From: Prochlorococcus sp. AG-402-K21
GTDB lineage: Bacteria; Cyanobacteriota; Cyanobacteriia; PCC-6307; Cyanobiaceae
Direction of reading: 5' to 3'
Length of the DNA stretch: 64,000 bases
Assembly (NCBI GenBank): GCA_003216775.1
Contig: QCII01000001.1
Location: 124,001-188,000 of the forward strand
Below are positions 14,917 to 19,488 of this stretch, piece after piece; within the stretch, counting starts at the first letter, position 1, and each line of letters starts with the position of its first letter. A program made the position numbers and the translations under genes. The notes beneath the pieces were generated by a model. That model searched no databases. It had not been told where the DNA came from and saw only the letters and a list, made by a program, of their open reading frames with translations.

Positions 14917-15096
14917 TTAGTTAGTTACCTCAACTTCTTTATCCCTACTTATTTGGCTTTCTAAAACTTCTATAGAAGCTTTTACAGAGGCTATTTTACG
15001 TTCAAGTGAATCCTTAATATAATTGAGCATTTCTAACTTCTTATGTTGATAAAAACTCTTTTTTTCTTTAGAAGACTTTAAATAACAATTAAACAT
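14917..15096 (-). CDS. Small Lys/Glu-rich coiled-coil protein, unknown
   Basis: This is an uninterrupted frame of 59 codons from an ATG (CAT on the plus strand at 15094-15096) to a TAA at 14917-14919. The product starts MFNCYLKSSKEKKSFYQHKK and continues with a heptad-like helix containing LERKIASVKASIEVLESQI. It has no membrane helix. I recognise no family. Its end lies three bases after the stop of the convergent Ap4A phosphorylase gene, and the fit between the two stops supports a real gene. Short charged helical proteins of this kind are common in this type of genome. Confidence 0.55.
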   Translation of the reverse strand: MFNCYLKSSKEKKSFYQHKKLEMLNYIKDSLERKIASVKASIEVLESQISRDKEVEVTN

Positions 15097-15240: not shown

Positions 15241-16254
15241 TTGTATAATCCTGAAAATTCAAATACAAAAAGAATATCAATTGATTTGCCTGAGGAACTG
15301 ATTTCTAGGTTTGATCAATTACGAAAAGAGTGGGGATTTAGAGCAAGAGGACCAGTAATAGAAAAGATACTTAAAGAACTTCTTCAAGAAGATGATTTAC
15401 TACCTAAGAACCAACAGCAAGAAATAGACTTTAAAGAGAAAAAGAATAATAATGAAAATTTAAATATTGATGAAAATACTGCCTTGGTTTTAATTAAATC
15501 AGACATTAAAAAAGAGGTGAATAAGATATCTTTAAATAAAAGAGTTTCAAATAACGATCAGTATAAAGAAAAAATCAACTCAAACATAAGCCTTCCCAAT
15601 TTTGTAGAAAAAAAAGTAAAGAATTTAAGAAGAAGTATTAATAGTGAAAAATTAAAGGAGAATATTAATGATATTCAAATTAATACAATAAAAGAAACTG
15701 AATTAATAAAATGTCGAATAGCGTTAATTAGTCATTGGAAAACCTTATATGGAACAGTTCCTAATGATCATGTAGTAGAAGCTTCGATGGATTGGTTTGG
15801 AAGGGATATATGGCCAAATCTTGATGGAACAGAAAATTTACCCTTTACGTGGAGTGCAGCCAATAAATTTATGTCTGAATTATGCCCATTTTGGATCAAG
15901 AAAAATCCATCCCTTGAAATTGTTTTATTAATGATTGGGGTTTTAGAAGACCCTTTTGCTACATCAGATTTAATTAATAGGATACCAACACTAATGAGGA
16001 GGTTTGTAAGTAGATTTAAGCGAAATAACAGGTCAAATTCATTTGAAACTTTGGACTCAACAATGACGGTACATGGAGCACTTAAATTATTGAATTTATC
16101 CACATCCGCAGGATCAGCTCATACATTACGTAAAATTAGGGAGGCCTATAAATCAATAGCCTTAGAGATTCATCCAGATGCTGGAGGATCAACAGATCAA
16201 ATGAGGAAATTAAACGAAGCTTATCAATTGCTAAAAAATCTATATAAGAATTAG
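15241..16254 (+). CDS. Ribbon-helix-helix / J-domain fusion protein
   Basis: The 337-residue protein has an unusual order of domains. Residues 10-50 look like a ribbon-helix-helix DNA-binding domain (KRISIDLPEELISRFDQLRK, then PVIEKILKELL). A charged linker of about 110 residues follows. A middle region of about 165-270 is rich in Trp and of unknown fold (ISHWKTLYGTVPNDHVVEA). The C-terminus is a short J-domain with the HPD motif at about 311-313 (ALEIHPDAGGS) and the last helix LNEAYQLLKNL. J-domains stimulate Hsp70 (DnaK). The start is a TTG at 15241; no ATG or GTG is in frame before it. A palindrome covers its stop codon and dyad repeats follow. The function is unknown. Confidence 0.75.
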   Translation: MYNPENSNTKRISIDLPEELISRFDQLRKEWGFRARGPVIEKILKELLQEDDLLPKNQQQEIDFKEKKNNNENLNIDENTALVLIKSDIKKEVNKISLNKRVSNNDQYKEKINSNISLPNFVEKKVKNLRRSINSEKLKENINDIQINTIKETELIKCRIALISHWKTLYGTVPNDHVVEASMDWFGRDIWPNLDGTENLPFTWSAANKFMSELCPFWIKKNPSLEIVLLMIGVLEDPFATSDLINRIPTLMRRFVSRFKRNNRSNSFETLDSTMTVHGALKLLNLSTSAGSAHTLRKIREAYKSIALEIHPDAGGSTDQMRKLNEAYQLLKNLYKN

Positions 16255-16271
16255 TATACTAATTCTTATAT
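16242..16271. repeat. 30-bp perfect palindrome over the stop codon of the RHH-J gene
   Basis: The 15 bases at 16242-16256 (starting ATATAAGAATTAG) are the exact reverse complement of 16257-16271. In RNA this gives a 13-bp stem with a UAUA loop that contains the TAG stop codon. It has no GC-rich core and no T-tract behind it, so it is a poor classical terminator. Its right arm runs into the first 12-bp dyad of the neighbouring repeat family (TCTTATATGAGA, 16264-16275). Confidence 0.7.
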
Positions 16272-16310
16272 GAGACCAATGCTAAGTCTATTTAGTAGTC
16301 TTATATAGGA
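16264..16310. repeat. 47-bp paired-dyad repeat, copy 1
   Basis: The copy is a 12-bp near-palindrome TCTTATATGAGA (16264-16275), a 23-bp spacer containing AGTCTA and ending in TAG, and a second dyad TCTTATATAGGA (16299-16310). The two dyads start exactly 35 bp apart, as in the other two copies. This is the most diverged copy: its second dyad has AGGA in place of GAGA or AAGA. Confidence 0.75.
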
Positions 16311-16452
16311 TAGGTGCGAATACCAAAAATTTTTGACCTTCATCAATTTTTTATTTTATTGGCCAATATTAATTGATAAAATTATTTGATTAAGTAGAAA
16401 TACAAATAAAATTTAATATGCAAAAATATATAAAATTCACTTGTATAGTATT

Positions 16453-16499
16453 TCTCATATAAGACTTAGTAATAGTCTAATATATAGTCTCATAAAAGA
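16453..16499. repeat. 47-bp paired-dyad repeat, copy 2
   Basis: The dyads are TCTCATATAAGA (16453-16464) and TCTCATAAAAGA (16488-16499), with starts 35 bp apart. The 23-bp spacer holds AGTCTAATA and ends in TATATAG, matching copy 3 closely. An additional AGACT...AGTCT inverted repeat lies at the left edge of the spacer. Confidence 0.75.
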
Positions 16500-16669
16500 T
16501 AAGTAAGATAGCATATTTTATCAATTTGAATAAACCATGCTCATCAAATCGCTTAATGCCCGAAAAAAAATAAAAATTGATTAATAAACCCATAAATAAC
16601 GTCCTTTAATTGTCCAGAAAAGAAACAATGTCTAAAAATTATGTCTACAAAAGGCTTTTATATCTACCC

Positions 16670-16690
16670 GTACTGCCTTATAGACAGTAC
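16670..16690. repeat. Short inverted repeat at the end of the small secreted-protein gene
   Basis: GTACTG at 16670-16675 is matched by CAGTAC at 16685-16690, with a 9-nt loop. It overlaps the stop codon of the minus-strand gene that ends at 16690, so it could end that transcript, but no T-run follows on the minus strand. This is weak support for a terminator. Confidence 0.4.
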
Positions 16691-16938
16691 TACCTTACTT
16701 GAAGCTTTTCTATAGCAGTTTGTTTATCAACGCTAGGAACATCGCTTAGGCCGTTGGCATCAAACCAAGGGGCGTTAGCCCAATCAAAACCTTCGCCAAA
16801 AGTGTTATCAGGTGCAGTTATATACCAATGACAAGAGGCATCAGGAACATCAACAGCGCATTTTGACCAATTATCCGACCATTGGGGAACTTGAACCCAT
16901 AACACTGAAGATAGCAATAGAGATAGTAAATTGATCAT
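16690..16938 (-). CDS. Small secreted Trp-rich protein, unknown
   Basis: The 82-residue product begins MINLLSLLLSSVLWVQVPQW, which resembles a short signal peptide or anchor. The mature part has two cysteines (KCAVDV, SCHWYI) that could form one disulfide outside the cytoplasm, and many Trp and Asp residues. I recognise no family. Its coding sequence looks visibly richer in G and C than its neighbours, as in the stretch around 16741-16800, which suggests either a different origin or strong codon selection. It sits between copies of the 47-bp dyad repeat: copies 1 and 2 beyond its stop, and copy 3 upstream of its start. Confidence 0.65.
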   Translation of the reverse strand: MINLLSLLLSSVLWVQVPQWSDNWSKCAVDVPDASCHWYITAPDNTFGEGFDWANAPWFDANGLSDVPSVDKQTAIEKLQVR

Positions 16939-16984
16939 GAAGTATATAATACAACATTATTTAGTTTTATAGGATTATAGAATA

Positions 16985-17031
16985 TCTTATATGAGAATCA
17001 ATTATAGACTAATAAATAGTCTCATATGAGA
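16985..17031. repeat. 47-bp paired-dyad repeat, copy 3
   Basis: This is the most regular copy. TCTTATATGAGA (16985-16996) and the perfect palindrome TCTCATATGAGA (17020-17031) start 35 bp apart. The spacer carries AGACTA and TAG, so AGACTA...TAGTCT forms an inner inverted repeat with a 5-nt loop. It lies between the end of pheT and the start of the small secreted-protein gene, 46 bp before that start codon, so it may act as an upstream control site for that gene. Confidence 0.75.
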
Positions 17032-17043
17032 TTGGCGATACAT

Positions 17044-19488
17044 TTAATTTCTCATTTTAGTATTAAAACTCTCTTCAACTTTAGAAATGATACTTGAGTG
17101 TATTGATTTAATATCAGAGTCTAGTAATGTTTTATCTTTATCTCTATAAGATAATCTAAATGTATAACTTATAAAATCATCCCCAAGTTTAATATCTTCA
17201 AAAACATCAATCAAATATACATCCTCTAGAAGACTTTTTCCTGTTTTTCTTATTTGTGATGTTATGTCACTAATTAAAAATTTCTTATTAAAAACAAAAT
17301 TTATATCCCTTTCCATTTTCGGAACAATTGGATATTGATTAAATATAGGAATCCATTTATTTTTTCTTGTACTAGCTTCAAGGAGTTTAACTACATTTAT
17401 GCTAAATAAATAAACTTTTTTTAATGACTTCTTCTCTAATATTAGTTTGGGGTGAATTTCACCAAAATATCCTGCATCTTTTCCTTCAATAATTAATTTC
17501 GCTGTTCGTCCTGGATGAAGAAAATCATATGTATCAGTTGGTTTATCATCAATTTTTATATTCAAAGATGATAAAGCTTCTTTTAACTTTCCTCTAGCCT
17601 GGTAATAATTGAGATCATTATCCTTACCCGAATTTACCCATTTCCCAAATTTTTTATTTCCAAAAATTGCACCATTCAGGACTTCTTCTTGATTAATATC
17701 AGTATTCTTATAAAAAACATTTCCAATTTCAAATACATAACAACTTGTTTGTCCAGCTTTTATATTACGGTTAACAATTTCCAAATGTTCTTTCCAGATA
17801 TTATTTCTTAAGCAGCTAGTTTCTATTAACAAAGGATTAGAAATCTTTATAAGTGTTTCTTTATCATCTGGAACAAGAGAGTAGGTAAGCACCTCGTTAA
17901 AACCATTTTCTGTAAAACCAAGTTTTACTTTTCTCAATGCCAATTGCTCTGATGTCAATTTTCCTGGCTTAATTGGATTAGGAAGGTTTAAGTCGAATCT
18001 GTCATACCCTATTAATCTCGCAATTTCTTCAATTAAATCTATTTCTCTAATTAAATCTTGTGATCTATTAGGAATTACTGCTACATCCCAACCATAATCT
18101 TTACTTTTTAATGAACAACCTATAAGTGTTAATTTATCAACTATTTCACGATCAGATAAATTTCTTTTTTTAAATTTATCATTAATGATTAATGGACCAA
18201 GAATTTTATGTATTCGATTTCTTCTTAATTTAATAAAAATATCCTTATGACTTATTAAATTCGAGGTATGTATGATTGGTAAATTAATAGCAAAATATTC
18301 TTCTAAAAGATTAATTGCCCTAGCAACTGCACCTATTGTATTTTTAGATGAAATTCCTTTTTCATATCTACTGCTAGATTCTGTTCTTATGCCAACCGCC
18401 TTTGAAGATTTTCTTATAGTAACAGGATTAAAAACAGCGCCTTCAAGGTAAATAGATGAGGTAGAATTAGTTACAGAAGTTTCTAAACCACCAATAACCC
18501 CTGCAATAGCAATGGGGTTATCACAACAGGTAATTATTGTAATATTTTCATTTAAATCATATTTTTTACCATCTAAACATACAAGGCTTTCGTTATCTTT
18601 GGCTTTTCTTACAGTGAAGTCTTCAGGAGAGACTTCTTTTCCAATTAAGCTTGATAGTTTATCTTTATCAAACGCATGCAATGGTTGCCCTTGCTCTAAA
18701 AGAATATAGTTTGTTAAATCAACTAGAAGATTAATCGATTTTATACCTGATTTTTCTATACGGTCCTTAAGCCATTTTGGCGATAATTTCTCTCCATTTA
18801 CTCCATCAATACAGGTTATTGTATATATGCAATCAGATGTTATGGCCTCTTGGCAAAGTTGAATTCCTTTAATTAAATGGATATTGTATTTTTGGTTTAC
18901 TTCCGGAAAATTTAATGTTGATTCTAAAAGAGCAGAAATTTCCCGTGCTATACCTGTAACCGACATTCCATCAGGTCTATTAGCTGTAATTGCCAAATCA
19001 TATATAAAATCATTTAATTGAAGCAAATTTGACCCTGGAGTGCCCAATTCATGTTTTAAGGCTAAATCTTCATCAATAATCTCAATCCCTTCGCTAGATT
19101 CCTCTAGTCCCAATTCTTGAAGTGAGCATATCATTCCTTCACTTATGACACCTCTAATTTCACTTCTTTTAATAGTTAAACTAACTGCACTTAATTTCGC
19201 ACCAACAGTAGCAACATAGACATAAATATTCGGTTTAATATTTCTCGCTCCACAGATAATTTGTAAATTCTTTGAATTACCAATATCGACTTGGCAAATA
19301 GAGAGTTTGTCAGATCCTTCGTGTTTTAAAACAGATAAAACTTTACCTAAAACGACACCATTTATATTTTCTGAGCAATCTTCTAATGATTCAACCTCAA
19401 ATCCACCAATAGACAATTTCTCAGAGAGATCTTCAGGAGTAGAAGTAATTTCTACTAAATTTTTCAACCAATTATGAGAAACTTTCAT
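17044..19488 (-). CDS. pheT: Phenylalanine-tRNA ligase beta subunit
   Basis: PheT is the large subunit of the tetrameric enzyme that charges tRNA-Phe. The 814-residue protein has the N-terminal EMAP-like tRNA-binding domain (VVLGKVLSVLKHEGSDKLSICQVD), the B3/B4 editing domain (ANRPDGMSVTGIAREISALL), the B5 domain, the catalytic-like core (DLIEEIARLIGYDRF) and the C-terminal anticodon-binding FDX-ACB domain (IPIFNQYPIVPKMERDINF). The full-length bacterial form is present with no gap. It is divergent from rpmG, with about 100 bp of shared promoter space. pheS is not in the window. Confidence 0.97.
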   Translation of the reverse strand: MKVSHNWLKNLVEITSTPEDLSEKLSIGGFEVESLEDCSENINGVVLGKVLSVLKHEGSDKLSICQVDIGNSKNLQIICGARNIKPNIYVYVATVGAKLSAVSLTIKRSEIRGVISEGMICSLQELGLEESSEGIEIIDEDLALKHELGTPGSNLLQLNDFIYDLAITANRPDGMSVTGIAREISALLESTLNFPEVNQKYNIHLIKGIQLCQEAITSDCIYTITCIDGVNGEKLSPKWLKDRIEKSGIKSINLLVDLTNYILLEQGQPLHAFDKDKLSSLIGKEVSPEDFTVRKAKDNESLVCLDGKKYDLNENITIITCCDNPIAIAGVIGGLETSVTNSTSSIYLEGAVFNPVTIRKSSKAVGIRTESSSRYEKGISSKNTIGAVARAINLLEEYFAINLPIIHTSNLISHKDIFIKLRRNRIHKILGPLIINDKFKKRNLSDREIVDKLTLIGCSLKSKDYGWDVAVIPNRSQDLIREIDLIEEIARLIGYDRFDLNLPNPIKPGKLTSEQLALRKVKLGFTENGFNEVLTYSLVPDDKETLIKISNPLLIETSCLRNNIWKEHLEIVNRNIKAGQTSCYVFEIGNVFYKNTDINQEEVLNGAIFGNKKFGKWVNSGKDNDLNYYQARGKLKEALSSLNIKIDDKPTDTYDFLHPGRTAKLIIEGKDAGYFGEIHPKLILEKKSLKKVYLFSINVVKLLEASTRKNKWIPIFNQYPIVPKMERDINFVFNKKFLISDITSQIRKTGKSLLEDVYLIDVFEDIKLGDDFISYTFRLSYRDKDKTLLDSDIKSIHSSIISKVEESFNTKMRN

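Follow-up and report, generated by a model that had tools for sequence, protein, structure and literature searches.

We propose, giving the idea about an even chance, that the locus between the gene for a ribbon-helix-helix and J-domain protein (RHH-J) and pheT in Prochlorococcus sp. AG-402-K21 is a chromosome-terminus site of its family that would work like dif, and that the half-site arrays around its core would be accessory sites, probably bound by RHH-J. The window, by which we mean the whole 64,000-nucleotide stretch of DNA that was analysed, had previously been read from its sequence alone, and that sequence-only reading had picked out three 47-bp copies of a double dyad, which it took for operators, recombination sites or small mobile repeats. 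The site that emerges from our comparison is a compound one, consisting of (a) an inverted repeat with arms of about 10-11 bp and a centre of 7-9 bp, (b) an upstream pair of GTCC direct repeats at a fixed distance from it and (c) flanking, helically phased arrays of half-sites, the last found in the genus and in some others (Table 1). The wider survey covered 151 genomes of a family that we take to be Cyanobiaceae, the genus labels being putative.

Table 1. Features of the locus, in positions of the window.
Feature	Positions	Strand	Remarks
RHH-J gene	15241..16254	+	N-terminal ribbon-helix-helix, family-specific middle, C-terminal J domain with HPD motif
Array 1, 47 bp	16264..16310	+	Starts 10 bp 3' of the RHH-J stop
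Array 2, 47 bp	16453..16499	+	Orientation as array 1
GTCC-N7-GTCCA direct-repeat pair	16601..16616	+	Putative arm-type or accessory site
Palindrome GTACTGCCTTATAGACAGTAC	16670..16690	.	Putative crossover core (dif-equivalent)
Small protein gene, 82 aa	16690..16938	-	Signal-like N-terminus by eye; between palindrome and array 3
Array 3, 47 bp	16985..17031	-	Apparent inversion relative to arrays 1 and 2
pheT	17044..19488	-	Convergent partner gene closing the locus

The coordinates of the three 47-bp copies were all verified. A genome-wide search for the double dyad with up to three mismatches returned these three places only in the 1.64-Mb genome (20 contigs), and the backwards pattern used as a control gave 0 matches in the same genome at the same tolerance. 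None of 60 random windows generated by a first-order Markov model contained any copy when scored on the plus strand with up to three mismatches, against the three observed. Single dyads were unremarkable, with 123 matches at up to two mismatches against 127 expected, and the signal of the copies is the 35-bp pairing together with the spacer, the single dyads being nothing special. Conservation in relatives was borne out as well, since 66 of the 80 best loci, all from records of Prochlorococcus or unclassified Synechococcaceae, contain at least three copies, 13 contain two and one contains a single copy, when each dyad may deviate by up to two mismatches.

Sequence logos built from these 80 loci revealed that the central AGTCTA (AGACTA in array 3) roughly equals the dyads in conservation, and that the dyads, this centre and the flanking GTATA are almost invariant; copies were assigned to logo classes according to how far they lay from the first match, which misclassed a few of them. 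The arrays are near-symmetric and their flanks asymmetric, and array 3 looks inverted because its GTAT-type conserved flank lies on the opposite side. The half-sites of the 47-bp copies fit a near-symmetric register of 0, 11, 23, 35 and 46, so that the 35-bp spacing appears to represent three steps of a helically phased array. Two loci (L062 and L094) carry an additional array 2 unit, with 167-178 bp between the copies. Outside the genus, at least four of the five half-sites occur in exact register in 7 of 20 loci (L212, L214, L215, L218, L219, L223 and L231) and in none of the shuffles; all five RGWCY half-sites are in register in L215 only among the 20 gaps, and exact-register arrays with at least four of five half-sites were not found in the other 13. 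Looser clusters, with at least four RGWCY half-sites within 48 bp, are present in 15 of the 20 other-genus gaps, several of them irregularly spaced, and we therefore rely on the stricter count of 7 of 20.

These results bear on all three suggestions of the sequence-only reading. Small mobile repeats found no support, because the copies keep to one locus in relatives and were not found elsewhere in the genome, and a REP- or MITE-like element, which needs many dispersed copies, was rejected with three copies at one locus. Ordinary operators, through which the arrays would regulate RHH-J, pheT or the small secreted-protein gene, are not favoured either. For such a role speaks the position of array 3, which lies 46 bp ahead of where the small gene starts, a gene present in 80/80 loci of the genus in which the arrays are clearest, and RHH proteins are often repressors. 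However, arrays 1 and 2 are situated 3' of RHH-J, no dyad with up to two mismatches occurs between 12496 and 16263, which leaves none upstream of that gene, the small gene is limited to the genus and accompanies none of the seven exact-register arrays of other genera, and a terminus location would go unexplained; we consider regulation of these genes improbable. Recombination sites were the nearest guess, although the likely crossover point is a separate palindrome that had not been listed; the 47-bp elements on either side of this palindrome have the look of accessory arrays for protein binding.

This palindrome became apparent in an alignment of 80 gaps between RHH-J and pheT (81 including the window, one of which was dropped for length), in which non-coding conservation peaks at the GTCC-N7-GTCCA pair and at the palindrome GTACTGCCTTAWAGACAGTAC. 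Within the gap, the pair is present in 80/80 genus loci and the strict palindrome GTACTG-N9-CAGTAC in 63/80, and the distance from pair to palindrome is 69 bp in all 63 loci that have the strict palindrome. In other genera the palindrome takes a form close to TGCGTAMCTG-N9-CAGKTACGCA, which was found between RHH-J and pheT in 15 of 20 fetched loci and not in the remaining five (L223, L224, L225, L228 and L230). Among the 14 other-genus palindrome loci that could be read by script, eight have a GTCCA-N6-GTCCA pair, the second repeat of which lies 55 bp (57 in one locus) before the palindrome arm. In many genera the palindrome can be read as 11+7+11, with shorter arms in Prochlorococcus. An additional motif, AGT-N4/5-CAA, between the pair and the palindrome was discarded, as only 1 of 14 sites in hosts and 7 of 31 in viruses have it.

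The small gene within the locus, the stop codon of which abuts the palindrome, shows codon-like conservation by eye, and its 82-aa product has no Pfam or NCBIfam match. It was matched by tblastn in every one of the 80 genus loci and in 0 of 20 loci from other genera, so that it cannot be the purpose of the compound site as a whole, and its presence there is probably incidental.

Searching the 151 family genomes for GTAMCTG-N9-CAGKTAC yielded 73 places in 71 genomes of 27 genera, and the backwards control was found in 10 of the 151, once in each. The exact family palindrome is absent from the other 80 genomes, among them all 13 of the window's own genus, in which the arms are one base shorter. 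In 67 of the 73 places it lies 221-1128 bp past the RHH-J match. Three of the remaining six are on stretches that bear pheT while RHH-J is on another contig, which probably represents the same locus broken by assembly, and three are extra copies, in G156, G148 and G168. The copy in G156 has genes for a T7-like RNA polymerase and an integrase nearby (L365, 3375-13802), in a region that looks like an integrated podovirus-like element; the terminus locus of this host is intact despite the second palindrome, and palindrome-bearing elements thus need not be integrated at the terminus. In G148, the contig with the extra copy is 10 kb long and has a replication gene of phage or plasmid type.

The RHH-J gene itself, the start codon of which is uncertain, is matched in 141 of the 151 family genomes, a count that includes a decayed copy in G042 and a weak match in G177; the 10 genomes without a match comprise seven of genus g5 and one each of g10, g13 and g27. 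Among 195 genomes sampled across the class, 23 from the family match RHH-J over its full length and 16 from outside the family match it in the J domain only. Profile searches at E up to 0.1 found the DnaJ domain in 21/21 diverse orthologs and RHH_1 in 17/21, the best RHH_1 match having an E value of 1.3e-5, and an AlphaFold2 model of the protein reached a mean pLDDT of 38.5 on a shallow alignment (24 sequences, each sharing 91-98% identity with the first). An open reading frame of 59 aa on the minus strand (14917-15096), situated between RHH-J and the Ap4A phosphorylase-like gene, gave no Pfam match above cut-off. Binding of RHH-J protein to the arrays is plausible. In G042, a genome listed as 100% complete, the gene is decayed, with 14 stops counted in the match (L155, 10134-10478), and all three arrays, the GTCC pair and the palindrome are retained. 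All seven sampled g5 genomes without an RHH-J match also lack the exact palindrome, yet keep the recombinase that is described below.

We used dnaN to place the locus on the chromosome, a gene that is reported to adjoin the origin in Synechococcus elongatus (PMC3480399) and that, in 8 of the 10 genus genomes examined, is found within 210 bases of the beginning of a contig. Expressed as a fraction of the chromosome, with lengths rounded to 0.1 Mb for most of the 60 genomes, the distance from dnaN to RHH-J has a median of 0.480 and a range of 0.33-0.50 (minimum 0.334; 20 genera); it is at least 0.45 in 51/60, at least 0.40 in 56/60 and below 0.45 in 9/60. The sample combines 55 genomes with 5 of 10 others examined, those left out being G000 (the genome that holds the window), G024, G039 and G060, which have dnaN and RHH-J on different contigs, and G042 with its decayed gene. 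At this distance from dnaN, RHH-J marks the terminus region. RHH-J and pheT are convergent neighbours in 55/55 genomes, their match starts being 2.4-8.0 kb apart. In five related, syntenic genomes (six were sampled, and G190 was dropped for want of a strict palindrome) the turning point of the keto-amino skew is about 20 kb away from the palindrome; plain GC skew was noisy and, in G041, for which 360 kb were profiled, turned about 100 kb away at about 0.99 Mb. Two of the more distant genus members, G015 and G022, have the block the other way round with respect to dnaN and still opposite to it. Judged by dnaN as origin marker and by one skew measure in one syntenic group, the locus is in the terminus region, roughly opposite the origin, in Prochlorococcus and the related genera sampled.

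Such a location would also suit a fork trap of the Tus/Ter kind, a system with polar, non-palindromic termination sites, in which the arrays block replication forks and arrays 1 and 2 oppose the inverted array 3. The apparent opposite orientation of array 3 agrees with this idea, but near-symmetric arrays are ill-suited to polar blocking, all of them lie within 770 bp while the keto-amino skew turns some 20 kb off, and the palindrome would be left without a role; a fork trap is therefore hardly probable in our view.

A site that works like dif would be expected to meet a recombinase, and we found a tyrosine recombinase of about 390 aa with a match in 150 of 151 genomes, 148 of them with E below 1e-98; the match is weak in G073 and G087, and there is none in G094. 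Many genomes have further, weaker recombinase matches. The protein belongs to the integrase superfamily, has the R, HxxR, H and Y residues as judged by eye, and finds its best NCBIfam match in XerA (E 1.2e-10, below the family cut-off). One of four orthologs has a match to an arm-DNA-binding domain (E 8.6e-4, just below cut-off), and the gene is located away from the locus. By contrast, a search for FtsK_SpoIIIE (PF01580) at E up to 0.001 found no match in any of 24 family genomes, while the same search matched 10 of 14 control genomes. If FtsK is absent, selectivity must come from elsewhere. Prediction of dif is reported to have failed for all five single-chromosome cyanobacteria included in one study, alongside remarks on divergent XerCD and weak skew (PMC3025954), and one survey calls xerC rare in this phylum (PMC5101192).

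Further evidence comes from viruses. Among IMG/VR contigs, 83 stretches contain the palindrome with GCGTA arms, against three for the backwards control, and the Prochlorococcus form gave 0 matches in viral contigs. The following counts refer to the 80 listed of these 83 stretches, which are parts of contigs and include several near-duplicates. A GTCC-type pair lies within 110 bp of the palindrome in 25/80 stretches, compared with 1/80 control windows, some of which are cut by contig ends; in 20 of the 25 the pair is 47 or 56-60 bp from the palindrome. Clusters of RGWCY near viral palindromes (15/80) were set aside because the comparison was made without a GC-matched control. Genus g3 shares its exact 29-bp site with two viral contigs, L305 and L337, and AP013539, a deposited uncultured Autographiviridae phage, carries the palindrome; in four named cyanophage isolates it was not found, being absent from the whole records of MED4-184 and KBS-S-2A and from stretches of 7.6-7.7 kb of S-RIP2 and NATL1A-7. 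In the 80 stretches, all of them partial contigs, tblastn at E up to 1e-4 found no encoded RHH-J, pheT or core recombinase. T7-like cyanophages are described as integrating with their own integrase at tRNA-Leu, which is a different site (PMC8776855).

For the large terminase of L288, the 12 best matches, at 82-93% identity, are from marine cyanophages and uncultured marine phages, and 10/80 stretches, L288 included, encode a terminase at least 84% identical to it; the terminase of L284 has its best matches in cyanophages at 42-45% identity. Terminases of the L288 or the L284 type occur in 49/80 stretches, in 48 of the 49 within 1.9 kb of the palindrome, and it is possible that the viral copies next to the terminase gene have another role in phages. 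Taken as copies of a host site, the phage palindromes suggest that a host factor acts on it.

The viral copies also help to judge whether the palindrome could be a transcription terminator, an RNA hairpin between convergent genes or an uncharacterised structured RNA. It does lie between convergent genes, abutting a stop codon, and in 66 of the 73 host places, counted by eye, the two arms agree at the variable base. Nevertheless, it has no T-run, its arms are conserved between AT-rich and GC-rich genera, the would-be stem is broken in 28/80 viral copies, and an Rfam scan of the 64-kb window returned one tRNA only at gathering score and nothing at the locus. Moreover, the viral arm variants (C/G 49, A/G 18, C/T 10, A/T 3) assort independently, as would be expected of two separate half-sites in DNA but not of an RNA stem, and we regard a terminator or structured RNA as very improbable.

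Alternatively, the palindrome could be an ancient phage-derived site that was captured in an ancestor and owes its terminus position to inherited synteny. This would account for cyanophage contigs that carry the palindrome, often with the pair, and for a recombinase of the integrase superfamily, and, as RHH-J and pheT stay together in all 55 genomes, the position could have been inherited with the block. On the other hand, the site, usually present once per genome and with its internal spacing fixed, is conserved across many genera, and the orientation of the block relative to dnaN varies between genomes while the distance stays near one half; we assign little probability to mere descent from a phage.

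We prefer to read the locus as a dif-equivalent because it is local to the terminus region, has two inverted arms, co-occurs with a conserved recombinase and has copies in phages. Against this reading weigh G042, which keeps the arrays despite its decayed RHH-J gene, the g5 genomes, which have the recombinase but neither an RHH-J match nor the exact palindrome, the exact-register arrays in only 7 and the palindrome in only 15 of 20 other-genus loci, the 80 genomes that lack the exact family form, the recombinase gene away from the locus, the four phage isolates in which the palindrome was not found, the viral copies next to terminase genes, the extra palindrome of G156, the turn of plain GC skew about 100 kb away and the nine genomes with a dnaN distance below 0.45. 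Conservation, spacing, position and co-occurrence are what we observed directly. In the mechanism that we envisage, the near-universal XerA-like tyrosine recombinase would cross over at the palindrome and so resolve chromosome dimers, and the N-terminus of this enzyme, which possibly binds arm sites, may touch the GTCC pair. RHH-J would coat the two arrays on one side and the single, inverted array on the other, and would fold the terminus in such a way that recombination is restricted to sister termini, thereby replacing the control that other bacteria obtain from FtsK. As a guess, the complex may be disassembled by Hsp70 that the J domain recruits. Both the pairing of proteins with elements and the recombination itself we infer from sequence; phased half-site arrays beside an RHH gene would be the expected look of an accessory, topology-sensing complex.

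A different division of labour is conceivable, in which RHH-J acts as a MatP-like organiser that marks or condenses the terminus through the arrays or tethers it to the division site, while the palindrome is bound by another factor and there is no recombination. The RHH domain of RHH-J, its additional J domain, which could serve a partner, and the confinement of the arrays to the terminus locus would all agree with such a function. We nonetheless think it rather unlikely, since three multi-half-site arrays within 770 bp differ from the many dispersed single sites of MatP, and since the palindrome, the pair at fixed distance and the viral copies would be left unexplained.

Returning to the dif-like reading, we tentatively extend it, with distinctly less confidence than the reading itself, to an FtsK-independent terminus complex in which a domesticated phage-type integrase would act at a core-plus-arm site, RHH-J on the arrays would give directionality, Hsp70 would possibly undo the complex, and cyanophages would exploit it through copies of the site. 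If this were true, it would represent an unrecognised phage-host interaction at the chromosome terminus. In our searches, which covered open-licence PMC papers only, no paper on the locus was found. How replication ends and chromosomes separate in cyanobacteria is an open question, and the terminus of Synechococcus elongatus is described as not clearly defined by GC skew (PMC3480399). The candidate crossover site, candidate accessory arrays and candidate proteins of this conserved locus make this question testable in Prochlorococcus and marine Synechococcus, and the cyanophage palindromes suggest that phages use the same host factor.

Compared with known systems, the locus is most readily set beside dif/XerCD, XerA/dif, XerS/difSL and XerH/difH, with which it shares that there is usually one site per chromosome, at the terminus, and that two inverted arms of about 11 bp surround a short centre and go with a tyrosine recombinase. 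Sites of the dif type are inverted repeats of about 28 bp with 11-bp arms and a 6-8-bp centre, and phages that use dif carry copies of it, just as phage contigs carry copies of the present palindrome. Unlike in dif/Xer, the GTCC pair and RHH-type arrays are added here and no FtsK was found; the arms look different by eye from E. coli dif, and their near-identity suggests a single recombinase, unlike dif/XerCD. The plasmid resolution sites cer and psi, which achieve selectivity without FtsK, combine a crossover core with accessory protein-binding DNA, as this locus putatively does, but ours is chromosomal, at the terminus, has accessory sites on both sides and would employ RHH-J instead of ArgR, ArcA and PepA. 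MatP is likewise an RHH-type protein with palindromic sites at the terminus, and RHH-J resembles it in its DNA-binding domain; however, matS occurs as many single 13-bp sites across the wide Ter domain, whereas RHH-J has a J domain and only three clustered arrays of multiple half-sites are present here. In ParR/parC-type centromeres, an RHH protein occupies helically phased half-site arrays, and the arrays beside the RHH-J gene are alike in arrangement, although they are located at the terminus. Lambda-type attachment sites, finally, also combine a core inverted repeat with direct-repeat arm sites at helically set distances and a recombinase with an N-terminus of the kind that may bind arms here, but the present site is one chromosomal locus that is kept across genera and has its recombinase gene elsewhere.
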